NCBI RefSeq assembly: GCF_006539125.1
Contig: NZ_BJMK01000007.1
Location: 62,001-126,000 of the forward strand
Length of the DNA stretch: 64,000 nucleotides
Source: Gluconobacter sphaericus NBRC 12467
GTDB taxonomy: Bacteria; Pseudomonadota; Alphaproteobacteria; Acetobacterales; Acetobacteraceae
Direction: 5' to 3'
Shown here: positions 5,451 to 62,101 of the stretch, piece after piece
How positions within the stretch are numbered: the stretch's first letter is position 1
Layout: each line of letters opens with the position of its first letter
Position numbers and translations under genes: made by a program
The notes under the pieces: model-generated
The model's input: only the letters and a program-made list of their open reading frames with translations
Databases searched by the model: none
What the model was told of the DNA's origin: nothing

Positions 5451-6370
5451 TTGTGCACACGGACTGGCGCAATATTCCCGCCTCCGCCCGCAATACGGTG
5501 GCAGCACTCGGCAATTTCGACGGCGTGCATCGCGGCCATGTCCACCTTCTCGACACTTTGCGGATGGCCCGACCAGATCATCCGCTGTCGGTCGTTACGT
5601 TCGACCCGCATCCCCGCACGCTGTTCCGCCCGCAGGACCCGCCGTTCCGTCTGATGCTGCCGGATGTCCGCGCCGCAGCCCTTGGCGAGCAGGGCGTTGA
5701 GCACGTCTTTCAGATCCCATTCGATGCGGAATTCTCCCGTCTGAGTGCCGACCGGTTCGTAAACGATGTCCTCGTGAAGGGCCTCGGTGTGGCGCACGTG
5801 GCCTGCGGCGCAGATTTCGCATTCGGCCACCGTCGTCACGGCAATATCGACCGTCTTGAGGCGCTTCTCGCGCCACACGGAATCGGCCTGACCATCGTGC
5901 CCCAGCTTGCCGATGATGGCGGTCCGATCTCCTCAAGTCGCATCCGTCGCCTGTTGCAGGAAGGTTATCCCGAGCGTGCAGCCGAGGAACTGGGCCGTCT
6001 CTGGAGCATCGCCGGTCCTGTCATGCACGGAGACCAACGCGGGCGGCTTCTCGGTTTTCCGACGGCCAATATTCCTCTAACCCAACATCTCGAACCCGCG
6101 CGCGGCGTCTATGCCGTCCGCGTTACACTGCCCGATGGCCGTATCGTTCCCGGTGTCGCTAATATCGGCCGTCGTCCCACGATCAATGACGGTCGGGAAA
6201 GCCGTCTTGAAGTCCATCTCTTCGACTTCAACGAAGATCTGTACGACCAGACCCTCAGCGTTGCCCTGATCGCGCTGCTGCGTGAGGAAAAGAAATTTTC
6301 CAGTCTGGAGGAACTCAAGGCCCAGATTGCAGCGGATGCCGCGCAGGCCCGCTTTATCCTGGGCATATGA
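5447..6370 (+). CDS. ribF: Bifunctional riboflavin kinase/FAD synthetase
   Basis: Phosphorylates riboflavin to FMN and adenylylates FMN to FAD. The N-terminal FAD-synthetase domain has the nucleotidyl-transferase signature ALGNFDGVHRGH (near residue 20) and SSSRIRRLL. The C-terminal kinase domain has HGDQRGRLLGFPTANI and the catalytic-type VANIGRRPT and LEVHLFDF blocks. ATG 5447 overlaps mtnC by 4 nt and yields 307 residues, the usual length; longer in-frame readings run over mtnC and are not credible. It is the last gene before a terminator. Confidence 0.95.
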   Translation: MIVHTDWRNIPASARNTVAALGNFDGVHRGHVHLLDTLRMARPDHPLSVVTFDPHPRTLFRPQDPPFRLMLPDVRAAALGEQGVEHVFQIPFDAEFSRLSADRFVNDVLVKGLGVAHVACGADFAFGHRRHGNIDRLEALLAPHGIGLTIVPQLADDGGPISSSRIRRLLQEGYPERAAEELGRLWSIAGPVMHGDQRGRLLGFPTANIPLTQHLEPARGVYAVRVTLPDGRIVPGVANIGRRPTINDGRESRLEVHLFDFNEDLYDQTLSVALIALLREEKKFSSLEELKAQIAADAAQARFILGI

Positions 6371-6403
6371 CGACCTCGATTTTTCCTTTTTTCAGCGTCG
6401 TTG

Positions 6404-6438
6404 AATCCCCTTCTCCAGTCCAGGAAAGGGGATTTTTA
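6404..6438 (+). terminator. Rho-independent terminator after ribF
   Basis: AATCCCCTT at 6404-6412 pairs with AAGGGGATT at 6426-6434, with a further TCC/GGA pairing inside and a T-run after it. It ends the recX-to-ribF operon and separates it from the iron-regulated gene. Confidence 0.85.
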
Positions 6439-6477
6439 TTACGCATTGTTCTGTGTCATTTATGTCACGTTTGGCAT

Positions 6478-6532
6478 AGAGAATGAGAATCTTTCGCAAT
6501 GTTGCTGAATCTGTATTGAGAATTATTCGCAT
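6478..6532 (+). promoter_or_regulatory. Probable Fur-binding sites upstream of the siderophore receptor
   Basis: Two AT-rich GAGAAT-type repeats sit 50-100 nt before the receptor start: AGAGAATGAGAATCTTTCGC (about 6478-6497) and ATTGAGAATTATTCGCATT (about 6514-6532). Both resemble the GATAATGATAATCATTATC Fur consensus of overlapping hexamers. Position and downstream gene fit iron repression; binding itself is inferred. Confidence 0.6.
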
Positions 6533-6580
6533 TAACTCTTTAAGGGCAGCATCCGTTTTCGTTTGCAGGATCATGATCCG

Positions 6581-8980
6581 ATGTCGTCCAGAACACCTCG
6601 TCACCCTTTGGGTCCCCTGTCCCTTGCTGCTGGTCTGACGCTCGTCTGCTCCGCCGCCCACGCACAGGACGATAGCCGGCATCATCACAAGGCCCGTCGC
6701 CACCCTGTTTCCAAAAATAACGTAGCGAACCTCCAGTCATCCAAGGCCCCTCAGCCTAAAGCTCCCACATCGGGGACTGCTCCGAAAACGGCGGACAACA
6801 GCATCGTCGCAACGCCTGAGGAAGCCGAACACCTGCAGGTCGTCGGCTCACCGATGAACACGTTGCAGACCCCCATCGGCATCGGCCGGATGCCTGAAGA
6901 CGTCCTGCACACGCCGCAGACGATCAACGTTGTGCCCAAGCTCCTGATGGAACAGCAGAACGTCAAATCTCTCGACGAGGCCCTCCGCAACGTGCCGGGC
7001 ATTACAGCATCGGTCGGGGAGGGCGAGGGTGGTATGGCAGGCGACCAGTTCTTGATCCGTGGCTTTCAGGCCCAGAACGACATCTACGAGAACGGCCTGC
7101 GCGATTTCGGCGTCTATACCCGTGACAGCTTTGATTACGATCATGTCACGGTCATCAAAGGGCCGTCCTCGGAAGTCTTCGGCAATGGGACGACGGGTGG
7201 CGCCATCAACATCAGCACCAAGGTCGCGCATCTCGGGGACAGCTATGGCGGCAGCTTCTCGGGCGGGTCTGCGGATTATTATCGCGGCACGCTCGATTTC
7301 AACAAACAGATCGGGGATTCCACGGCCATCCGCATCACCGGCATGGGCAACGAGAACAATACCGTCGGCCGGGATAATGTTTTCTCCCATCGTTGGGGGA
7401 TTGCCCCGTCCATCGCTTTCGGTCTGGGCAAACGTACGACCTTCACGCTGGAATATTTCCACCAGACGGATAACCGTGTGCCGGATTATGGTGTGCCGGT
7501 CGTCACCAAGCCGGGGACAAGCATTGCGAAGCCACTTACGGAGTATGGTCTGAACCGCAATAACTGGTACGGCACAACGTATGATCAGGATGCATCGAAT
7601 GTGGACATGCTGACGGCACGCCTGAAATTCGACCTGAACAAGAACATCACGTTCTACAACGATGCTCGCGGTGGCATGTACAGTCGGTACTTCTCCGCGT
7701 CACAGCCAGGCTGTGATACGACCTGCGCCGCTAATTATTTCACTGATCCTGAAGCGGCGACCATCAATCGTCGTGGTCATCTTGGCGGTCCGGAGCCCTA
7801 TCAGCAGAACGACTGGTCCGTGCAGGACGTGTTCTCGGGCATTGCGAAATTCTCGACTGGCAGCATTCGTCACCAGATGATCGCCGGTGTCGATATCTCG
7901 CACGTTTATGATCGTCGCACGAACTATGCGTATAATTTTAACGGCCAGAACGGCACGAAAGCAGACACGACGAGCCTGCTGCACCCATCCGCCACCCAGC
8001 CCGGTCTTCTGCTCGGGACGCTTGGCCAGTATAGTGGTAATCTCGTAAACATATCCGGTGTTGGTCATGCCATGTACAAGACGGGCGATGCCACCGATGT
8101 TGGTGCGTTCTTCTCTGAACAGATGTGGCTGGTACCCTGGTTCTCGATCCGTGGCGGCTTTCGCTGGGATCACTGGGACAGTCATTATTCCGCTAATGGG
8201 GGCACGGCCGGTGCCGGCGTGTCTTACGGACAGACGCAGGACACGTTCAATCCGACCGTCAGCCTGATGTATACGCCGACCAGCAATGCCATGGTCTATT
8301 TCAACTGGGCGCAGTCCACCACGCCGCTTGGCCTGTATGTGACGAACAGCTCCGAACCCCTGAAATCATCCACGCAGGGTTTCAGCCCCGAGCGCAGCAG
8401 TCTTTACGAACTGGGTGCGAAGTATAGCGCTTTTCATGGCCGCATGGGCTTTGCGGCCTCCGTATTCCGGCTGGAGAAGGGTAACGCCCTCATGACCGAT
8501 CCTACAACGGGGAATGTGTCATCTTCCAGCGACCGCCAGCGCAATCAGGGCGTCGAACTCAGCGTCTCGGGCGAGATCCTCAAGAACTGGACCATGATCG
8601 GCACTTACGCTTATTATGACGCCACCACTGTCTGGTCTCAGACCGCTGCCAATATCGGTAAGCGTATTCAGTACGCTCCGAAGAATTCGGCCACGATCTG
8701 GTCCACCTACACGATCGCGCCCAACCGCCCCTGGAACGTCACGTTCGGCGGCGGCCTGACATGGCGCGATGGAGTTTACCTGAATGCCGCGAATACGGGC
8801 TGGGTGCCTGCGACCGTGGAATGGGATGCCGTGGTGTCGCATAATTTCGGCAAGCACTGGCGCGTGGCCATGAACGGCTACAACCTCGACAACCGCCTGA
8901 ACTACAGCAACCTGTTCAGCGACCGCGCCACCCCGGCGGTCGGGCGTTCTTTCCTCTTCAATCTTTCGGCGAATTACTAA
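6581..8980 (+). CDS. TonB-dependent siderophore receptor
   Basis: Outer-membrane gated channel for ferric-siderophore uptake, energised by TonB-ExbBD. About 799 residues: a signal peptide ending near CSAAHAQ, a His/Lys/Pro-rich linker of about 70 residues, then the plug (start near LQVVGSPMNTLQTPIG; LDEALRNVPGIT; FLIRGFQAQNDIYENG; VIKGPSSEVFGNGTTGGAIN) and a beta-barrel ending in ...FNLSANY with a terminal aromatic residue. No N-terminal STN signalling domain is seen, so transcriptional surface signalling is unlikely. ATG 6581 is preferred over TTG 6563 because GCAGGA at 6565-6570 spaces correctly. It resembles the catecholate/ferrichrome group; the ligand cannot be read from sequence. The stop overlaps the convergent Sel1 gene by 4 nt. 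Confidence 0.92.
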   Translation: MSSRTPRHPLGPLSLAAGLTLVCSAAHAQDDSRHHHKARRHPVSKNNVANLQSSKAPQPKAPTSGTAPKTADNSIVATPEEAEHLQVVGSPMNTLQTPIGIGRMPEDVLHTPQTINVVPKLLMEQQNVKSLDEALRNVPGITASVGEGEGGMAGDQFLIRGFQAQNDIYENGLRDFGVYTRDSFDYDHVTVIKGPSSEVFGNGTTGGAINISTKVAHLGDSYGGSFSGGSADYYRGTLDFNKQIGDSTAIRITGMGNENNTVGRDNVFSHRWGIAPSIAFGLGKRTTFTLEYFHQTDNRVPDYGVPVVTKPGTSIAKPLTEYGLNRNNWYGTTYDQDASNVDMLTARLKFDLNKNITFYNDARGGMYSRYFSASQPGCDTTCAANYFTDPEAATINRRGHLGGPEPYQQNDWSVQDVFSGIAKFSTGSIRHQMIAGVDISHVYDRRTNYAYNFNGQNGTKADTTSLLHPSATQPGLLLGTLGQYSGNLVNISGVGHAMYKTGDATDVGAFFSEQMWLVPWFSIRGGFRWDHWDSHYSANGGTAGAGVSYGQTQDTFNPTVSLMYTPTSNAMVYFNWAQSTTPLGLYVTNSSEPLKSSTQGFSPERSSLYELGAKYSAFHGRMGFAASVFRLEKGNALMTDPTTGNVSSSSDRQRNQGVELSVSGEILKNWTMIGTYAYYDATTVWSQTAANIGKRIQYAPKNSATIWSTYTIAPNRPWNVTFGGGLTWRDGVYLNAANTGWVPATVEWDAVVSHNFGKHWRVAMNGYNLDNRLNYSNLFSDRATPAVGRSFLFNLSANY

Positions 8981-52678: not shown

Positions 52679-55339
52679 ATGACGCGACGTTCCTTCCGCT
52701 CCCATAATCCCCAAGGCTCTGGCAATCCACAGGGTCCTGGCGCTATGCCGCCCCGTCCTCCACGTTTCCGCCGCTATCGGCAGTCCTTGGCGATAATTGC
52801 CGGTGTAGGGCTGGTGGGGATCGCCGGAGCAGGGGTTCTGGGCTGGACGACCTATGCCAAGCTGGTGGCGGATCTGCCCAGCGTGGATAGTCTGCGCGCC
52901 TACCAGCCGCCGACCGTCAGTCGTATTTATGCTTCCGATGACCGTCTGATGGCGGAACTGGCCAATGAGCGCCGGATTTTTGTGCCGATCAACGCTATTC
53001 CTGAGCGCGTGAAGAATGCCTTCATCGCGACCGAAGACCATAATTTCTATACGCATGGCGGCGTGGATTTCATGGCGATCGGCCGTGCGGGCCTGACGGA
53101 CATTTTTGCGCGTCATGGCCGCCGTCCGCTGGGTGCTTCGACCATCACTCAGCAGGTGGCGAAGGTCATGCTGCTCAACAGCAACGTCGTGAGCCTCGAT
53201 CGCAAGATCAAGGAAGCCCTGCTTGCCATGAAAATGGAGCAGGTGCTGTCCAAGGACAAGATTCTCGAGATTTACCTGAACGGCATCTATCTGGGGAACG
53301 GCGCTTATGGTGTCGCCGCCGCCGCCCAGAGCTATTTCAACAAGCCGCTTGACCAACTGGATGATGCCGAGGCTGCTTCTCTGGCTGCTCTTCCTAAGTC
53401 GCCGACGAACTACAATCCGTTCCTGCACCCGCAGGCTGCGATGGCGCGCCGTAACCTTGTGCTGGACCTGATGGTTGAGGCCGGTGTGCTGACACGCCAA
53501 CAGGCTGACCAGGAAAAGCAGGAGCCGCTGGTTCCGCAGCAGAAGCAGCGCTTCGGGCCTTTGCCGGATTCTGAATGGTTTGGTGAGGAAGTCCGTCGTC
53601 AGCTTATCGCCCAGTACGGACAGGATCGGGCGGCTCAGGGCGGCCTGGAAGTTCATACCAGTCTCGACCAGGGTCTTCAGGTTACCGAGACGCACCTTTT
53701 GCGTGAAGGGCTGATGAATTACGACCGCGTTCATAGCGGTTGGCGGGGCTCTCTGCGCAACCTACCGGACATTCAGGATGATGGTTGGGAAAGCGCGCTC
53801 GATCACGTTACTCCTCCCGGTGGTATGTTGCGGGAGTGGCGTCTGGCGGTTGTGCTTCCGGGTGGCACACATGTGGGCTGGATCGAGGAAGGCTTGGCCC
53901 GCAAAGGCGTACTTCTTGAGACGGATATTGCCTGGGCGCGCCGAATGCATCCGCTGCGGGGTGGTGATGTCATCATGATCGAGCCGCAGGAAGGCGGCTT
54001 CGCAGCCCTGCGCCAGATCCCGCAGGTTGAAGGCGCTGCTGTCACGTTGGACGTCCATACGGGCCGCGTTCTGGCGATGGTTGGCGGCTGGTCGTTCCAT
54101 GAGAGCCAGTTCAACCGTGTAACGCAGGCACTGCGTCAGCCGGGATCGTCTTTCAAGCCTTTCGTTTATCTGGCTGCCATGGAAAAGGGGATTTCCCCCT
54201 CTGAGCGCTTCGATGATTCGCCTATTTCTTATGGTGACTGGCACCCCCAGAACTACGAGCATGATAACTGGGGCCCCACGACATTGCATGACGCGTTGCG
54301 TGAAAGCCGCAATCTGGTCACGATCCGGGTGGCCGCTCATCTCGGCATGAAGGCCGTCGCCGATACGGCTATCCGGGCCGGGCTGGTGGCACAGATGCCG
54401 CATGTGTTGCCTGCGGCGCTCGGCGCCGTCGAGACGACCGTCATGCGTGAGGCTGCGGCTTACGCCACTATCGCTAATGGCGGCCATATCGTTACACCGA
54501 CCCTCGTGGACGACATCCAGGATCGTGCCGGAACTGTTTTGTGGCAGGCGGGTGGCCTGAAGCTGGGTACTGCCATGCAGGCTCCCCCTGCCGAACAGCC
54601 GGCTTCCACGGATGGCACGACGCCTCCCGCCCCTGCGACAGCTCCTCCAACTCCTTCCGTAACATCGGCGGTTCCCCTGCCGGGTAGTGTGCCTGTTCCG
54701 GCTCTGACGGATGTGCGGCCGATTCTAGCCAGCGAACAGAGTACCTTTCAGATCGTGAAGATGATGCAGGACGTGATCGCCCGCGGGACTGGTCGCATGG
54801 CAGGTGTGGGCATTGATCGCCCTATCGCAGGCAAAACAGGCACTAGTCAGGATTTCCATGACGCCTGGTTTGCCGGCTTCTCGCCTGATATCGTCACGGT
54901 TGTCTGGGTCGGTTTTGACACGCCCCAGACGTTAGGTCGCAATTCCGATGGTGGCCGCGTGGCCGGGCCGATCTGGAACCGGATCATGAAGGTTGCCCTG
55001 GCCAATCGTCCGAAGCTGGATTTCCGGGTGCCTGACGGCATCACGCTGGCCAGCTACGATACGGGACGCATCTCCGCGGTGGATGGCTTCAAGACCGATC
55101 AGGTTCCGGGCGCTTCCGTCGAACTACATGGTTTCGGCGCAGGTACGGAAGCCCTGACCGCCGCCGATACGGGCGTGGATAGTGTAATTTCGGATTCCGA
55201 AAGCGATATGGCCCAGACGCCCGGCCATGGCGGGGGAATGACCGGAACTGGCTCTGGAAGCAGTACGGCCGTAGCTCCGGGGCAGCCCCAGAAACCTGCT
55301 CCGTCTGATGGTGACATTGGCGTGGGTGGCCTATACTAA
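52679..55339 (+). CDS. mrcA: Penicillin-binding protein 1A (bifunctional transglycosylase/transpeptidase)
   Basis: Class A PBP that polymerises and cross-links peptidoglycan. 886 residues: Pro/Arg-rich cytoplasmic start, one membrane anchor (SLAIIAGVGLVGIAGAGVLG), glycosyltransferase domain with ATEDHNFYTHGGVD and GASTITQQVAKVML, and the transpeptidase with SSFKP (SxxK), SRN (SxN) and KTGTS. A Pro/Ala/Thr-rich insert (about residues 640-680) interrupts the transpeptidase and a Gly/Asp-rich tail ends the protein. Precedes prfB by 59 nt. Confidence 0.93.
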   Translation: MTRRSFRSHNPQGSGNPQGPGAMPPRPPRFRRYRQSLAIIAGVGLVGIAGAGVLGWTTYAKLVADLPSVDSLRAYQPPTVSRIYASDDRLMAELANERRIFVPINAIPERVKNAFIATEDHNFYTHGGVDFMAIGRAGLTDIFARHGRRPLGASTITQQVAKVMLLNSNVVSLDRKIKEALLAMKMEQVLSKDKILEIYLNGIYLGNGAYGVAAAAQSYFNKPLDQLDDAEAASLAALPKSPTNYNPFLHPQAAMARRNLVLDLMVEAGVLTRQQADQEKQEPLVPQQKQRFGPLPDSEWFGEEVRRQLIAQYGQDRAAQGGLEVHTSLDQGLQVTETHLLREGLMNYDRVHSGWRGSLRNLPDIQDDGWESALDHVTPPGGMLREWRLAVVLPGGTHVGWIEEGLARKGVLLETDIAWARRMHPLRGGDVIMIEPQEGGFAALRQIPQVEGAAVTLDVHTGRVLAMVGGWSFHESQFNRVTQALRQPGSSFKPFVYLAAMEKGISPSERFDDSPISYGDWHPQNYEHDNWGPTTLHDALRESRNLVTIRVAAHLGMKAVADTAIRAGLVAQMPHVLPAALGAVETTVMREAAAYATIANGGHIVTPTLVDDIQDRAGTVLWQAGGLKLGTAMQAPPAEQPASTDGTTPPAPATAPPTPSVTSAVPLPGSVPVPALTDVRPILASEQSTFQIVKMMQDVIARGTGRMAGVGIDRPIAGKTGTSQDFHDAWFAGFSPDIVTVVWVGFDTPQTLGRNSDGGRVAGPIWNRIMKVALANRPKLDFRVPDGITLASYDTGRISAVDGFKTDQVPGASVELHGFGAGTEALTAADTGVDSVISDSESDMAQTPGHGGGMTGTGSGSSTAVAPGQPQKPAPSDGDIGVGGLY

Positions 55340-55398
55340 GACGCACCAGAACAGACCGAATGGGGCGGTGACAGGCCGCCCTTTCAGTGGAGGACATT

Positions 55399-56530
55399 AT
55401 GTCGGCCGAAACCGAGGCCCTTTCAGAGCAGATCAAGCAGTCGGTGGCACTGCTGAGGAGGCATCTTTGACTGGGATGTCGCAACAACACGCCTCGCGGA
55501 ACTAAATCACCGCGTTGAAGATCCTGACCTGTGGAATGATGCGGATGCTGCTCAGAAGCTGATGCGCGAGCGGACAACGCTTGCGAACCAGATTGAAGGA
55601 GTGCAGCGGATCGAATCCGAGGTTGAAGGCACGCTCGAACTAGTCGAATTGGCGGAAATAGAAGGGGACGAAAGTCTCGTCCAGGACGCCGTGCAGACTC
55701 TGCGCGCCATTGCTGAAGATGTTCGCAAGCGAGAAATCGAAAGCCTGCTCTCGGGTGAAGCGGACAGTAATGACTGTTACGTCGAGGTGAATGCGGGCGC
55801 CGGTGGTACGGAAGCCCAAGATTGGGCCGAGATGCTCCTACGCATGTACACGCGTTGGGCCGAGCAGCATGGCTATAAGGTCACCTTCATTGAAGGTAGC
55901 GAAGGCGAACAGGCCGGCATTAAATCTGCTACCATCCAGGTGAGCGGTCCTAATGCCTATGGCTGGCTTAAGACCGAGGCGGGCGTACACCGTCTGGTTC
56001 GGATCTCGCCCTTCGATGCGGCAGCCCGTCGCCAGACGTCGTTCGCGTCTGTCTGGGTCTATCCGGTCGTCGACGATTCGATCGAGATCGACATCAACGA
56101 TTCGGATCTGCGCGTTGATACGTTCCGGGCGTCGGGTGCGGGTGGACAGCACGTCAACAAAACGGATTCGGCTATCCGCATTACCCATATTCCGACCGGG
56201 ATCGTGGTGGCCTGTCAGACCGACCGTTCGCAGCATCGTAACCGGGCCAAGGCAATGGAAATGCTGCGGGCTCGGATGTACGAAGCGGAGTTGCAGAAGC
56301 GCGAAGCCGCTGCTGCCCAGACGGAGGCCTCAAAGACGGACATTGGCTGGGGGCACCAGATCCGCTCCTACGTCCTGGCGCCTTATCAGCTGGTCAAGGA
56401 TCTGAGGACGGGGGTGGAGAAGGGGAATCCGGGCGCGGTGCTCGATGGTGCCTTGGACGACTTTATGTCGGCTTCTCTGGCCCAGAGTGTGGGAGCGACC
56501 CGATCCGAAGCTAGTGCCTCGGCCCAGTAG
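55399..56530 (+). CDS. prfB: Peptide chain release factor 2 (with programmed +1 frameshift)
   Basis: Recognises UGA/UAA stops and releases the nascent chain. The gene is read in two frames: 55399-55467 ([16 protein letters not shown]...) then, after +1 slippage at the in-frame TGA 55468-55470, from GAC 55469 onward ([20 protein letters not shown]...). About 376 residues, normal for RF2. The tripeptide region SPF ([10 protein letters not shown]) decodes the stop and GGQ ([12 protein letters not shown]) catalyses hydrolysis. GGAGG-type ribosome site before ATG 55399. A partial reading starting at 55562 would miss the N-terminal domain. Confidence 0.96.
55456..55471 (+). promoter_or_regulatory. 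RF2 autoregulatory +1 frameshift site
   Basis: AGGAGG (55456-55461), a 3-nt spacer, then CTT TGA C (55465-55471). This Shine-Dalgarno-like stimulator plus slippery CUU-UGA-C is the classical RF2 arrangement: low RF2 leaves the UGA unread long enough for the ribosome to slip, raising RF2. Confidence 0.95.
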
Positions 56531-56561
56531 GGCAGAAAGAGGGATTGCAATCAGGATCCTG

Positions 56562-56606
56562 CAGGGTACCAGAACGGATAAAGTCGTTCTGGTACCCTGT
56601 TTTTTA
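56562..56606 (+). terminator. Strong rho-independent terminator after prfB
   Basis: A perfect 15-bp stem (CAGGGTACCAGAACG at 56562-56576 with its complement at 56585-56599), 8-nt loop, followed by a run of T. Confidence 0.95.
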
Positions 56607-56918: not shown

Positions 56919-57587
56919 ATGAAGAGCTACGCCGCACAGCAGCGCAAGCCGACAGACTACATTGTCGCGATCGTCGTGGCCGTGCTGGCTATGGGCGCCG
57001 TGATCTATGCGCTCATGAGCGGTGCCGTGAGCAAGCTGGTCCAGGAAAAGCCGCCTATCAAGACGGAAGTCATCAAGGAACAGCCCAAGCCACCACCGCC
57101 ACCGCCACCACCGCCGCCGCCGCAGATGGAGCAGCCGCCTCCGCCGTATATTCCGCCGCCGAAGATCTCCGTGCCGCCGCCGCCCAAGGCGATCCAGCGT
57201 GTGACCCACGCCAAGCCGCCGCATCCGGTGCCGCCCAGCCCGACTCCATCGCCAGAGCCTGTTCCGGCTCCGCCGCAAGGACCGCCAGCTGAAGCAGTTC
57301 CAGATCACTCGGCTGGTGCACGACCGATCAACGGCGCACAGGCAGTCTATCCGGACGAAGCTATGGAAGAAAATCGCGAAGGTCATGTGACCGCGTCGTG
57401 TGACATTCTTCCGACAGGCAAGACGGCGAATTGTACCATTGTGAGCTCAAGCGGTGGCCACGAGTTCGTGGAAAGTGCGCTCGACTTCCTTCGTCGGGCC
57501 CGTTATCAGCCCGCCGTCGTGAACGGCGCTCCGGTAACAGAGCATCATCACGTGCTGCACATCGACTTTACGATGGGCGACGACTGA
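56919..57587 (+). CDS. tonB: TonB energy-transducing protein
   Basis: Couples the proton-motive force from ExbBD to outer-membrane receptors. 222 residues: cytoplasmic start MKSYAAQQRKPTDY, one membrane helix (IVAIVVAVLAMGAVIYALM), a very proline-rich periplasmic arm including a run of eleven prolines (about residues 58-68) and further PP repeats, then the TonB C-terminal domain (YPDEAMEENREGHVTASCDI ... VESALDFLRRARYQPAVVNG). AGAAGG precedes the ATG. First gene of the tonB-exbB-exbD-exbD-TPR unit. Confidence 0.92.
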   Translation: MKSYAAQQRKPTDYIVAIVVAVLAMGAVIYALMSGAVSKLVQEKPPIKTEVIKEQPKPPPPPPPPPPPQMEQPPPPYIPPPKISVPPPPKAIQRVTHAKPPHPVPPSPTPSPEPVPAPPQGPPAEAVPDHSAGARPINGAQAVYPDEAMEENREGHVTASCDILPTGKTANCTIVSSSGGHEFVESALDFLRRARYQPAVVNGAPVTEHHHVLHIDFTMGDD

Positions 57588-57724
57588 TCTTTCGATTGCC
57601 GTCAAACAGAATTGCTCTGTCAGGTTCTCCAAACTTGGCAGGGCTCAGAAAAGGGCCGGTCTCCATATGGCCGACAACCCAGAAAGCTCAGAAAACGGGC
57701 ATCTCTAACGAGGATATGGAGTTC

Positions 57725-58810
57725 ATGACCAGACTGTTCCGCCTTCCTGCCCTTGCCGTTCCGACGAAGGCGCGTGCCGTCCGTGCCAGCGCACTGGCTC
57801 TGACGCTGGCCCTGGCTTCCGGTGCCGTTGCACCGGCCGTCGCTTTCGCCCAGCCGGCTCCGGCCGACCAGAGTGCTCCCGCAGCGGCTCCGGTGGATCC
57901 TTCTTCCAACCCGGCTGCCCCGACGACGTCTGCCGATCCGGCTGGCGCTCCGGCTGCAGCCGCTCCTAACGATGCTGGCGCTCCGGCCGACCAGAGCGCT
58001 CCTGCGACGACTCCTGCCGATGAATCTCCTGCCGCGGCCGCAACGCCGGGCGAGAGCGCAACAGCAACGCCGGAAGCTCCCGCTCCGCAGGGCAACCCGT
58101 ACGGCCTCGGCGCTCTGTGGGCCAATGGTGATGCGATTGCCCGTGGCGTCCTGATCATCATGGTGATCATGTCCGCTGGTACCTGGATCATCATGGTCAT
58201 GAAGTTCCTGGAACAGGGCCGTATGTTCGCGGCATCCAAGGAAGCTGCCCGCGAGTTCTGGACTAAGCCGTCCGTTCAGCAGGGTGCTGCATCCCTGAAG
58301 GCGTCTTCCCCGTTCCGCTACATCGCAGAGACGGGCATCGTTGCCGCCGAGCACCACGAAGGTTCCATGCGTGACTCGATTGATCTGCCGTCCTGGACTG
58401 AAATGTCCATTTCGCGCTCGGTCGATACCATTAACACTCGTATGCAGGGCGGCCTCGCTTTCCTTGGTACGGTGGGTTCCACGTCTCCGTTCGTCGGTCT
58501 GTTCGGTACGGTCTGGGGTATCTATCACGCCCTGACGGCTATCGGCATCTCCGGCCAGGCATCCATTGATAAGGTTGCCGGTCCGGTTGGTGAGTCCCTC
58601 ATTATGACGGCTATCGGTCTTGCGACCGCTGTTCCGGCCGTGCTGGGTTACAACCTGCTCGTCCGCCGCAACAAGGGTGCCATGGATCGCGTCCGCAACT
58701 TCGCTGCCGACATCCAGTCCGTCCTGATCGGTGGCTTCCGTCATGGCGTCAGCCCGGAGCAGGGCAGCATGTCTGTTCCGACCACCATCACCACCAGCGA
58801 GCGGATCTGA
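57725..58810 (+). CDS. exbB: ExbB/TolQ-type proton channel protein with long N-terminal extension
   Basis: Proton-channel subunit energising TonB. About 361 residues, longer than the usual 220-250: a signal-peptide-like segment (ASALALTLALASGAVAPAVA), then a Pro/Ala/Thr/Asp-rich stretch of about 95 residues, then three membrane helices of the MotA/TolQ/ExbB fold (GVLIIMVIMSAGTWIIMVM; LGTVGSTSPFVGLFGTVWGI; MTAIGLATAVPAVLGYNLLV). ATG 57725 is preferred; ATG 57716 (MEFMTRLF) is possible. The periplasmic extension may bind partners and occurs in some alphaproteobacterial ExbB proteins. Confidence 0.9.
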   Translation: MTRLFRLPALAVPTKARAVRASALALTLALASGAVAPAVAFAQPAPADQSAPAAAPVDPSSNPAAPTTSADPAGAPAAAAPNDAGAPADQSAPATTPADESPAAAATPGESATATPEAPAPQGNPYGLGALWANGDAIARGVLIIMVIMSAGTWIIMVMKFLEQGRMFAASKEAAREFWTKPSVQQGAASLKASSPFRYIAETGIVAAEHHEGSMRDSIDLPSWTEMSISRSVDTINTRMQGGLAFLGTVGSTSPFVGLFGTVWGIYHALTAIGISGQASIDKVAGPVGESLIMTAIGLATAVPAVLGYNLLVRRNKGAMDRVRNFAADIQSVLIGGFRHGVSPEQGSMSVPTTITTSERI

Positions 58811-58814
58811 TCCT

Positions 58815-59240
58815 ATGGGAATGAACGTCGGAGGAGGCGGCGGTGACGACGAGGTGGTGTCGGCAATCAACACCACTCCCCTCGTCGACGTCATGCTGGT
58901 GCTGTTGATCATCTTTCTGATCACCATCCCCGTCGCCACGCATACGGTGAAGGTCAAGCTGCCGGTTGATGCTAATCAACCGACACAGACCAAGCCGGGC
59001 AACGTTGTTCTGGCCGTGAATGCGAACGGTCAGGTGTTCTGGGACACAACACTCGTTCCGAACCATACCGAACTTCTGAACCGTCTCGTCGAGGCGGCAA
59101 AGAAAAAGCCGCAGCCGCAGATCCAGATCCGCGGTGACCAAGCTGCCAAGTATCTGGCAGTCGGCCAGGTGGTTGCAACCTGCCAGGAAGCAGGGATTGC
59201 CCACGTGGACTTCATTACCGAGCAGCCTCACTCGAACTGA
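58815..59240 (+). CDS. exbD: ExbD biopolymer transport protein, copy 1
   Basis: Membrane partner of ExbB. 141 residues: Gly-rich start (NVGGGGGDDE), single helix with the essential Asp in NTTPLVDVMLVLLIIFLIT, periplasmic domain (VKVKLPVDANQP ... IQIRGDQAAKYLAVGQVV). Begins 4 nt after exbB. A second exbD follows, so the two may form a heteromeric complex. Confidence 0.92.
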   Translation: MGMNVGGGGGDDEVVSAINTTPLVDVMLVLLIIFLITIPVATHTVKVKLPVDANQPTQTKPGNVVLAVNANGQVFWDTTLVPNHTELLNRLVEAAKKKPQPQIQIRGDQAAKYLAVGQVVATCQEAGIAHVDFITEQPHSN

Positions 59241-59249
59241 GGTCGTGTC

Positions 59250-59273
59250 GGGTCGTTTTGAATAAAACGGCCC
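59250..59273 (+). other. Intercistronic hairpin between the two exbD genes
   Basis: GGGTCGTTTT (59250-59259) pairs with AAAACGGCCC (59264-59273), one G-T wobble, 4-nt loop, no T-run after it. More likely an mRNA-stability or attenuation element than a terminator. Confidence 0.5.
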
Positions 59274-59312
59274 GTTCCTGCTTTCACGTCACCCTTTTGG
59301 AGAACCGCCGTC

Positions 59313-59747
59313 ATGGGCATGAGCGTCGGATCTGACAGCACGCACGAAGACGAAGGCATTGTCGATATCAACACCACGCCGTTGATCGACGTGATGCTGG
59401 TGCTGCTGATCATGCTGATCATCACCATCCCACTTCAGACACACTCGGTGGCGATCGATCTGCCTCAGGGCAATCCTCCTCCATCGACCGAACAACCCAA
59501 GCTTGTGACCGTCAGCATCGGCTACGATAATAGCATTTCTTGGAATAACGAGCCGATCACGTCCGAGGCCGCTCTTCAAGCCCATTTCGAAGCTGCCGCA
59601 GCAATGCCGGATCAGCCTGAAATGCATATCCATCCCGATCGTCTTGCCGACTATAAGACGGTGGCCCATGTTATGGCAGATGCACAGCGTCTCGGCATGA
59701 CCAAGCTGGGGATTGTCGGTCTGGATCAGTTCATGGAAGGACAGTAA
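59313..59747 (+). CDS. ExbD biopolymer transport protein, copy 2
   Basis: 144 residues, same plan as copy 1: acidic start (GSDSTHEDEG), helix with Asp in NTTPLIDVMLVLLIMLIIT, then a distinct periplasmic domain (MHIHPDRLADYKTVAHVMAD). TTTTGGAG 10 nt before ATG 59313. It diverges enough from copy 1 to suggest a specialised role rather than a recent duplicate; similar ExbD1/ExbD2 pairs are known from Xanthomonas. Confidence 0.9.
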   Translation: MGMSVGSDSTHEDEGIVDINTTPLIDVMLVLLIMLIITIPLQTHSVAIDLPQGNPPPSTEQPKLVTVSIGYDNSISWNNEPITSEAALQAHFEAAAAMPDQPEMHIHPDRLADYKTVAHVMADAQRLGMTKLGIVGLDQFMEGQ

Positions 59748-59750
59748 TTC

Positions 59751-60992
59751 GTGTTTTTGTCCCTTTGCCGCCGTCTGAGCGCCCGTAATCTCCTGCTGGC
59801 CGGTGTTTTCGGTATCGCCGCTCTTGCTGGCTCTGCTCATGCTGACGATGTCCTCGGCCAAGCCGTGGGCAAGGACCTTCAGCAGGCCCAGAGTGCCCTG
59901 GCATCCAAGAACTACGCCAAGGCGATGGAAGCCGTCGACGCCGCAGATGCGGTCAAGGGCAAGACTGATTACGAAGCCTACACCACGGCCCAGATGCGTG
60001 CGGCTATCGCCGCACAGTCCGGCAACACGGATGCTGCCATTAGGGCCTATGATGTCCTAATCAATAGCTCCCGTACGCCGAAGACCGCCAAGGGTCAGAT
60101 GCTGATGGCGCAGGCTACGATGGCTTACAGCGCCAAGCAGTACGCCCGCGCTATTCCTGCGACCGAGCGTTATCTTAAGGAATACGGCGTTGATCCGCGC
60201 ATGCAGACGATGCTGATTCAGTGCTACTACCTACAGCAGGACTGGAAAGGCACTGCCAAGGCAGCTCAGGAACAGGTGGACGCCACAATTAAGGCTGGCA
60301 AGATTCCGCCTGAGAACCAGCTCCAGATGCTGGCTACAGCCTATACGAACCTGAAGGACGCGGATGCTAAAACGCATGCTTATGTCCTGCTGGCGAAATA
60401 TTATTCCAAGCCTGACTACTGGTCGATGTTGATCCACGATTTGGTGGCCAACCCGAATCTTTCGCCGCCGCTTGTTTTCTATGTCGAGCGTCTACGTCTG
60501 GCGACCGGTGTGCTCAAGGATCCGTCCGATTATCAGGATATGGGTGAGCGCGCGGTCCAGATGGGCCTACCCCAGTTGGCACTCAACCTGCTGAACCAGG
60601 GTTATGCCAATCATTCGCTCGGCAATGGGCCGACCGCAGCGGCAGACGCGAAGTTCCATGCTTTTGTGGCTCAGCAGGCTTCAACGAACCGGAGCCAGCT
60701 GGTTACTGCCGTCACCCAGGCTGCTTCTGCGTCGAACGCAGGCCCGGCTCTGACCGCTGGTTACAATCAGGTGCTGAACGGACAGGTCGATGCCGGTCTG
60801 GCTCTGATGAAGACAGGATTGGGCAAGAACCCGCGTTATCCGGATCTGGCTCAGGTCGAATACGGCATGGCGCAGATGGACGGTGGCCAGAAGGCTGAAG
60901 CCATCAAGACTTTTGCTTCCGTGCAGGGCAATGGCCCGGCCAAGGACGTTGCTGAACTTTGGTCGCTGCTGCTGTCGCGTCCTGCGAAATAA
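59751..60992 (+). CDS. Secreted TPR-repeat protein of the TonB operon
   Basis: 413 residues from GTG 59751 (GGAAGG upstream). A signal peptide (NLLLAGVFGIAALAGSAHA) is followed by repeated tetratricopeptide-like helices (ALASKNYAKAMEAVDAADAV; AYSAKQYARAIPATERYL; DYQDMGERAVQMGLPQLALN; GYNQVLNGQVDAGLALMKTG). Predicted periplasmic scaffold. It starts 3 nt after exbD copy 2, so it is part of the energy-transduction unit, but its role is unknown; an interaction with TonB or a receptor is inferred only from linkage. Confidence 0.78.
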   Translation: MFLSLCRRLSARNLLLAGVFGIAALAGSAHADDVLGQAVGKDLQQAQSALASKNYAKAMEAVDAADAVKGKTDYEAYTTAQMRAAIAAQSGNTDAAIRAYDVLINSSRTPKTAKGQMLMAQATMAYSAKQYARAIPATERYLKEYGVDPRMQTMLIQCYYLQQDWKGTAKAAQEQVDATIKAGKIPPENQLQMLATAYTNLKDADAKTHAYVLLAKYYSKPDYWSMLIHDLVANPNLSPPLVFYVERLRLATGVLKDPSDYQDMGERAVQMGLPQLALNLLNQGYANHSLGNGPTAAADAKFHAFVAQQASTNRSQLVTAVTQAASASNAGPALTAGYNQVLNGQVDAGLALMKTGLGKNPRYPDLAQVEYGMAQMDGGQKAEAIKTFASVQGNGPAKDVAELWSLLLSRPAK

Positions 60993-61017: not shown

Positions 61018-61047
61018 AAAGCCGGGGGTTCTGCCCCGGTTTTTTTT
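61018..61047. terminator. Bidirectional terminator between the TPR gene and flgH
   Basis: CCGGGG (61022-61027) pairs with CCCCGG (61034-61039), T-run on the right and A-rich on the left; it can end both the rightward TonB operon and the leftward flgH. Confidence 0.85.
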
Positions 61048-61051
61048 GTGT

Positions 61052-61798
61052 TCAGAACGGTAGGATTGCGTCCATGACCTGCTGGCCATAACGGGGTGTC
61101 TGAAGCTGCGTGAGAGTCCCGCGGCCGCCATAGGAAATCCGCGCTTCCGCCATCCGGTCATGCGTCACGGTATTGTCAGCCGTGATATCCTGTGGCCGGA
61201 CGATGCCACTGACCCCCAGTTCCCGCAACTCGCTGTTCACCCGGACTTCCTGCTTTCCCATCACGACGAAATTGCCGTTGGGCAGGACCTGAGTGATCGT
61301 TCCTGCCAGACGCAGGGTCACGGTCTCGTTGCGGGCGATTTTTCCGGTTGCGCCAGAATCGCTGCTACTGGCGGTGCTCAGGCTGTTCGCGCCCGTAATG
61401 GCGCTGATGACCTTTCCCTTGATCCCGAACAGATTGGGAATGCCGAATTTCTCGTCAGCGGTGCGGTCGGCAGTTGTTCCGTTGTTGAAGGCGGCGTTGT
61501 CGGTGATATCCACGATGATCGTGACCAGATCACCCACCTGCGATGCCCGCTGATCCTTGAAGAATGCCTTGCTGCCCGAACGCCAGAGGCTCGCGGCCTC
61601 ATCGGGGGGGGGCTGGAGCGGTGGCATCGGCATGGTGACGGGGCGATAGGAATTGGCCAGTGTGGGATCGGTAATGGATGTCATGCGGGGAGGTCGCCCG
61701 ATCTCCGACATTTGGGCGAGGGAGTTACAGGCTGACAGGGTCGGCAAAAGTCCGAGCAGTCCCAGAGTACGAACAGAGTGTCGAAAAGCGTGCCGCAT
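61052..61798 (-). CDS. flgH: Flagellar L-ring protein FlgH
   Basis: Outer-membrane lipoprotein of the flagellar basal body ring. 248 residues from ATG 61798: lipoprotein signal (LGLLGLLPTLSAC), then the L-ring blocks SLWRSGSKAFFKDQRASQVGD, VTIIVDITDNAAFNNGTT, VTLRLAGTITQVLPNGN and GIVRPQDITADNTV. It stands alone: no other flagellar gene lies in the window. The adjacent gene is a sugar-nucleotide pseudogene, not flgA or flgG. Confidence 0.92.
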   Translation of the reverse strand: MRHAFRHSVRTLGLLGLLPTLSACNSLAQMSEIGRPPRMTSITDPTLANSYRPVTMPMPPLQPPPDEAASLWRSGSKAFFKDQRASQVGDLVTIIVDITDNAAFNNGTTADRTADEKFGIPNLFGIKGKVISAITGANSLSTASSSDSGATGKIARNETVTLRLAGTITQVLPNGNFVVMGKQEVRVNSELRELGVSGIVRPQDITADNTVTHDRMAEARISYGGRGTLTQLQTPRYGQQVMDAILPF

Positions 61799-62101
61799 GG
61801 GAAAGTTGAGATCCGTCAGTTCCGTATGATTTCCAGCAAACACGAGAATGGTAAAAAACCTGTTAAGACGTCGTTATTCAGGTCTTCTGAAAAGACTCGG
61901 ACTTCGCCTGCATCTGACGGGAAGATTGTTTGCACGTGACGGCTTCTGCTTGTTCCTTGCCCTGTCCGGGGACGTGATCGAAAATAGTATGGCGTGGCCG
62001 ACATGCCTGATGGCCCGGGCCCATTCTGTCGGGAGAATGCCTCATGCCAATCGTTTCAGTTTCCTTCCATGCGGATGTGTTCTCCGCATTCCTGTTCTGA
62101 A
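61799..62101. other. Divergent intergenic region between flgH and the epimerase pseudogene
   Basis: 303 bp. No ORF here is supported. Must carry the flgH promoter; AT-rich near 61850-61890. Confidence 0.4.

Follow-up and report, generated by a model that had tools for sequence, protein, structure and literature searches.

A five-gene tonB-exbB-exbD1-exbD2-TPR unit in Gluconobacter sphaericus and its candidate periplasmic accessory protein

The five-gene unit and its products

A 64,000-nucleotide stretch of the Gluconobacter sphaericus NBRC 12467 genome (contig NZ_BJMK01000007.1, positions 62,001 to 126,000; here called the window) contains an operon-like unit of five forward-strand genes: tonB, exbB, two exbD genes and a gene for a tetratricopeptide repeat (TPR) protein. 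An earlier sequence-only reading had placed these genes in tight order between positions 56919 and 60992, and all five were found there with the expected domains. TonB (56919-57587, 222 residues) is composed of a transmembrane segment, a long Pro-rich stretch and a TonB_C domain (residues 141-218, E 7e-21). ExbB (57716-58810), 364 residues long when translated from the ATG at 57716, contains a MotA_ExbB domain at residues 224-326 (E 2e-28). ExbD1 (58815-59240, 141 residues) and ExbD2 (59313-59747, 144 residues) match the ExbD domain with E values of 4e-28 and 3e-26, respectively. The last gene (59751-60992, GTG start) encodes a TtpD-like TPR protein of 413 residues, which matches TPR_16 (E 9e-8) and TPR_19 (E 3e-5). 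According to these coordinates the genes are separated by 128, 4, 72 and 3 nucleotides. The TonB_C, MotA_ExbB and two ExbD domains score 74.8, 99, 98.7 and 92.6 bits, compared to curated cut-offs of 24.6, 22.9, 25.4 and 25.4 bits, so that adjacent genes encode all three domains of a Ton energy-transduction system.

The first 45 residues of ExbB resemble a signal peptide by eye and are followed by an Ala/Pro-rich extension, identified by its composition (residues 46-126, nucleotides 57851-58093, forward strand; 36% Ala, 22% Pro). The extension had been predicted at about 100 residues; it is indeed present after the signal-like segment, but is 81 residues long. The long ExbB proteins of Serratia marcescens and Alphaproteobacteria likewise have a signal peptide and an Ala/Pro-rich periplasmic extension, which contacts HasB; the composition given for that family is 24.6% Ala and 14.5% Pro (PMC9008036; this and the other published systems are described here from the available parts of the papers). 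The Thr/Glu/Thr channel positions, located by motif as described in PMC8599685, are present in the Gluconobacter ExbB.

Two ExbD paralogues of separate descent stand in tandem after exbB, as in the Xanthomonas-type dual-ExbD arrangement with which the locus had been compared. When 56 ExbD/TolR proteins were placed in a tree, those of the ExbD2 type fell into one clade (support 100/99) spanning the family Acetobacteraceae and other Proteobacteria. ExbD1 and ExbD2 together are separated as one group from TolR and from the ExbD of the TtpC-type operons discussed below (100/100), and ExbD1 alone is not one clade in the tree as drawn. The tree, which drew a long-branch warning from the program, contains no Xanthomonas sequences. 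Because the ExbD2 clade extends beyond the family, the exbD pair would either predate the acetic acid bacteria or have moved between groups as a unit. The membrane Asp, residue 25 of ExbD1 and present also in ExbD2, is kept by all 56 proteins of the tree, and by 22 of 22 ExbD1 and 22 of 22 ExbD2 sequences.

The TPR protein has a signal-like N-terminus and no lipobox, as judged by eye, in keeping with its description as a secreted-type protein; a lipobox-like motif occurs in one of 46 family sequences. Its AlphaFold2 model contains 21 helices after the signal segment, with a mean predicted local distance difference test score of 92.9. The best Foldseek match in the PDB has an E value of 6e-6, the TM-score does not exceed 0.38 among the matches listed, and the VIA-align Z score against MamA is 17 over 175 residues. 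These matches are generic TPR solenoids and therefore the fold comparison allows no functional inference.

Conservation and genomic neighbours of the TPR gene

The TPR protein was matched in 47 of 150 family genomes, 46 of which were kept, the G. sphaericus genome included; in the excluded genome (G007) the match covers 61 residues within a 1079-residue frame. The exbB-exbD1-exbD2-TPR genes stand together in 40 of the other 45 TPR-bearing genomes. The tonB gene is also present in 34 of these 40 loci, and the remaining six stretches start at a contig end. In five genomes (L056, L059, L061, L062 and L075) the exbD pair is located elsewhere. Linked or not, the TPR gene and an adjacent exbD pair co-occur in all 46 TPR-bearing genomes, whereas none of the eight TPR-less family genomes with three ExbDs has an adjacent pair. 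A further 40 TPR-less genomes, each with just two ExbDs, lie outside this contrast, although two ExbDs can still be a pair: the TPR-bearing genome G009 has two, both in the operon. Both positions were listed for nine of the 40, and none of these are adjacent.

The complete five-gene order was found again in 55 of 80 named loci of acetic acid bacteria, which rules out a chance arrangement and bears out the conservation across Acetobacteraceae expected from the sequence-only reading. Of the other 25 loci, 13 are truncated at a contig end, 11 belong to Komagataeibacter, which has a different locus, and in L203 the frames are split; two further Komagataeibacter are among the 13 truncated loci. Among named records the TPR protein is closest to those of Gluconobacter, the G. 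oxydans NBRC 14819 protein matching at 98%, and a profile search matched 96 of 150 genomes of the order. In Gluconacetobacter diazotrophicus PA1 5 (L222) the TPR frame starts 4 nucleotides after exbD2. In seven of the 80 named loci, six from Acetobacter and one from Komagataeibacter, the contig breaks off shortly before the TPR gene (L220, L221, L232, L236, L239, L251 and L254); a repeated exb region may disrupt these assemblies.

Outside the family, relatives of the TPR protein occur in 47 of 398 genomes of the phylum at an E value of 1e-8. Four of them (G482, G491, G568 and G549) were left out of the flank analysis. In 22 of 40 TPR loci ton genes are found within 4 kb on the same strand. Of the 18 loci lacking a ton gene within this distance, 16 belong to a single alphaproteobacterial family, f6, from which 17 loci were retrieved and one is ton-linked; without f6, 21 of 23 loci are ton-linked. 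A TPR relative was present in all 49 f6 genomes sampled, many of which contain adjacent exbD pairs among the matches listed. Because of this uniform presence f6 gives no contrast for the co-occurrence of the TPR gene with the exbD pair. A Sphingomonas record also contains an unlinked TPR relative. The five-gene order itself was found in six loci outside the family (L131, L132, L133, L134, L137 and the Caballeronia locus L171).

A PBP1A-like gene and prfB, which lie upstream of the unit in the window (52679-56530, forward strand), are frequent neighbours of the locus in the family. This raises the alternative that the TPR protein serves the envelope or peptidoglycan in general and only happens to be encoded at the end of a TonB operon, near a PBP1A gene. 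Such a function, unrelated to TonB, would also fit the five of 46 family genomes in which the TPR gene remains next to prfB although the exbD pair is elsewhere, and the orphan state of the gene in 16 of the 17 f6 loci. However, none of the six five-gene loci outside the family has a PBP1A or prfB match nearby within the stretches examined, and PBP1A was dropped as a candidate part of the unit. Together with the linkage of 21 of 23 relatives outside f6 to same-strand ton genes, and with exbD2-TPR gaps of 3 nucleotides in the window and 4 in G. diazotrophicus, this makes the alternative unlikely.

The exbD-less locus of Komagataeibacter

The 11 Komagataeibacter loci with enough upstream sequence (L225, positions 5595-8221, and L210, L212, L214, L217, L223, L230, L231, L233, L238 and L252) all consist of prfB, a TonB stub, ExbB and the TPR gene, uninterrupted by exbD. 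The stub, of 103-110 residues, retains the transmembrane and Pro-rich parts of TonB and lacks the C-terminal domain; no Pfam match was found in the one stub tested (L225). The transmembrane segment of the window TonB (56919-57020) and that of L041 have no His by eye; L043 and the Komagataeibacter stubs have one. The ExbB at this old site is without the Ala/Pro stretch, its longest frame being 255-256 residues in ten loci and 371 in L252. The TPR gene thus need not lie beside exbD or a full-length tonB.

All 11 genomes carry an adjacent exbD pair at another site. The second site comprises exbB-exbD1-exbD2 in all 11 and encodes an Ala/Pro-rich ExbB; tonB is present in ten, and in the eleventh the contig starts inside exbB. 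No TPR gene was found at the second site within the stretches examined. The same arrangement occurs in G135 (L089) and G060, and also in G073 and G142, where tonB is missing at contig starts.

The old-site genes could be a decaying leftover that has been kept for want of time. The loss of exbD1, exbD2 and the TonB C-terminal domain is what such decay would produce, and in the related group g73 one genome has an exbB frame interrupted at an ambiguous base, with a pairwise ratio of nonsynonymous to synonymous substitutions (dN/dS) of 0.37. Constraint on the stub is weak, with a summed dN/dS of 0.29 over the 11 loci, compared to 0.117 for full-length tonB in nine Gluconacetobacter with intact operons. 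On the other hand, all three frames are intact in the 11 loci, and the ExbB channel residues T, E and T are kept in every one. The summed ratios of old-site TPR (0.127) and ExbB (0.077) equal those of the intact operons (0.122 and 0.082), the values being Nei-Gojobori estimates from non-independent pairs; an earlier test with two genomes was looser (TPR 0.17, ExbB 0.15). Decay is accordingly regarded as quite improbable. The simplest reading of these sequences is that in Komagataeibacter the old-site ExbB and TPR protein remain functional, and that they most likely cooperate in trans with the complete set.

A putative TtpD-like accessory of the Ton motor

Each of the main elements of the unit has been published separately: the dual exbD, the long ExbB and a TPR gene ending a TonB operon. 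Xanthomonas and Sphingobium have the same first four genes, tonB-exbB-exbD1-exbD2 (PMC3551730, PMC8599685), and this order has also been published for G. diazotrophicus (PMC9368920); in their available parts, the three accounts name no TPR gene with the four. The TonB2 operon of Vibrio vulnificus ends with the gene for TtpD2, a 425-residue TPR protein essential for TonB2 iron uptake (PMC6957404). In both this operon and the Gluconobacter unit a TPR protein of about 400 residues is encoded by the last gene. The view that the TPR scaffold is not a standard component was thus wrong or overstated, although the scaffold itself is there. The conserved five-gene combination, the recurrence of the TPR gene across layouts and the exbD-less Komagataeibacter locus were not found in the open-licence literature searched.

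The two layouts differ in several respects. In Salinivibrio kushneri, which has a Vibrio TonB2-type operon, the order is DUF3450-ExbB (449 residues)-ExbB-ExbD-TonB-TPR. The 56919-60992 region of Gluconobacter lacks TtpB (DUF3450) and TtpC, and has one ExbB with an Ala/Pro tether and two ExbDs; tonB is the first gene, whereas it is next to last in Vibrio. A TtpC-type layout, in which exbD, tonB and the TPR gene come after a TtpC-like ExbB of about 450 residues, was found in 15 loci of six other family groups. A short second ExbB is present in 12 of these, and a single ExbB was detected in L151, L168 and L170. Two Vibrionaceae records contain the full TtpB-TtpC-ExbB-ExbD-TonB-TPR layout, one by annotation and the other by frame lengths and order. 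In L148 and L170 the TtpC-type operon contains two copies of exbD, both preceding tonB and the TPR gene, possibly a mix of both layouts.

Profile-profile comparison of the family TPR proteins with 17 TPR proteins of TtpC-type operons gave a probability of 99.9 (E 2e-33, 373 columns). With an equivalent family profile the TPR proteins of the 15 TtpC-type loci score 36.7-105.4 bits, compared to 26.9 bits for the best TPR protein of the PDB against the TPR profile, a difference due in part to the E 1e-8 threshold used in retrieval. The family TPR protein and the last-gene TPR protein of TtpC-type operons, which occupy the same position, are probably homologous. The tie to TtpD2 is indirect, because the profile reaches the TPR proteins of TtpC-type operons but not the two Vibrionaceae copies.

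TPR proteins are also encoded with other motors of the ExbB/ExbD type. In Tol-Pal systems the periplasmic TPR protein is CpoB, and the CpoB-like protein of the G. sphaericus genome is encoded at a separate tol-pal-type locus (L040, where genes were named by eye from order, length and sequence), unlike the TPR protein of the window. The two gave a profile-profile probability of 0.3 and no hidden Markov model match, and a CpoB origin of the TPR protein was rejected. Loci of the PVC group, compared by layout, combine a TPR gene, a tolQ-like gene, two tolR-like genes and a vWA transducer, the vWA protein taking the place that TonB has in Gluconobacter.

The unit is likely to encode an ordinary proton-driven Ton motor together with a TtpD-like periplasmic TPR accessory acting at the ExbB/TonB base. 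The ExbB ring, with its periplasmic Ala/Pro tether, the two ExbD paralogues and TonB would energise TonB-dependent receptors, and the fifth gene would supply the accessory. A single ExbB ring probably accommodates both ExbD1 and ExbD2, which might form a heterodimer. The TPR solenoid is placed at the motor base because ExbB and the TonB stub are what remains beside it in Komagataeibacter. It would bind ExbB, the membrane-proximal Pro-rich part of TonB, or both, and might hold the Pro-rich arm or stabilise the ring; the Ala/Pro tether, the ExbDs and the C-terminal domain of TonB would be dispensable in cis for the TPR protein.

Several points weigh against this assignment, in addition to the f6 orphans, the prfB-adjacent genes and the weakly constrained stub. 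Co-occurrence of the TPR gene with the exbD pair inside the family may all be shared ancestry. The same kind of profile had served to retrieve 15 of the 17 proteins compared profile to profile. The two Vibrionaceae proteins in the TtpD position gave no match to the family TPR profile, reached a probability of 87 when compared alone, and score 42-47 bits with the generic TPR models MamA and PrsT; common descent with V. vulnificus TtpD2 itself is unproved by these comparisons. Furthermore, the open-licence literature searched yielded no paper that treats the TPR gene of acetic acid bacteria, and no experiment on it.

ExbD2 and the TPR protein could instead make the Ton system specific for a substrate or signal, a role that has been proposed for ExbD2 in Xanthomonas: the exbD2 gene of X. 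campestris is dispensable for iron uptake and required for pectate-induced responses (PMC3551730). In Sphingobium SYK-6, however, none of tonB1, exbB1, exbD1 and exbD2 could be disrupted, and extra operon copies increased the conversion of many substrates (PMC8599685). The membrane Asp is, moreover, conserved in every ExbD1 and ExbD2 sequence compared, and a specific system of this kind appears improbable. Matches in the G. sphaericus genome (3.06 Mb, 97 contigs) number four for ExbD, four for MotA/ExbB, 45 for TonB-dependent receptors and six, in five frames, for TonB_C. Two of the ExbDs are the window pair, one is TolR in the tol-pal-type locus, and one belongs to a second exbB-exbD-TonB trio (L039, 5755-7757) with no TPR gene beside it. 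For G. oxydans, an exbB-exbD set has been noted in the vicinity of a ferrisiderophore receptor (PMC7567684), its correspondence to this trio being conjectural. Because there are 45 receptor matches, and the other ExbDs are TolR and that of one trio, a general role of the window motor is at least as likely as a specialised one, and the 'specialised' complex of the sequence-only reading found no support.

If dual-ExbD systems need the TPR accessory as Vibrio needs TtpD2, the standard model of three proteins usually given for Ton motors is short of a component. Komagataeibacter provides a natural deletion series by which the accessory's site of action becomes a testable question, narrowed to ExbB and the TonB segment closest to the membrane. 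A further, tentative and rather doubtful proposal is that the TtpD-like protein is a general, unrecognised part of Ton motors, whether its gene is unlinked or comes last in a dual-ExbD or TtpC-type operon. In Komagataeibacter its minimal partners would be the TonB stub, which lacks the C-terminal domain, and an ExbB without ExbD; this dedicated sub-complex of ExbB, stub and TPR protein would join the complete Ton motor of the second site, which has no TPR protein, and each system would contain two ExbBs, as Vibrio TonB2 does.

No E. coli-type Fur box was found upstream of the window tonB: the best match, 12 of 19 bases, was equalled in 175 of 500 shuffles, and Fur control of this gene was dropped. 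Raw counts, taken without shuffles, are 9-12 of 19 bases upstream of tonB in the 25 relatives listed; a predicted Fur box has been published for the tonB-exbB-exbD1-exbD2 genes of G. diazotrophicus (PMC9368920). A consensus scan listed no promoter-like site upstream of tonB on the same strand. Two terminator-like hairpins, both consensus matches only, flank the unit. The first, with 17 pairs and a T run, lies between prfB and tonB (56561-56600, forward strand), and the second between the TPR gene and a convergent flgH-like gene (61022-61046, no strand assigned; hairpin positions 3' of the TPR gene 61022-61039 / 61025-61037). Terminator-like sites are not in excess in the window, with five observed compared to 4.4 +/- 2.2 in shuffles. 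The flgH-like gene (61052-61843) was otherwise found beside the locus in L041 and L042 only, among 38 family relatives.

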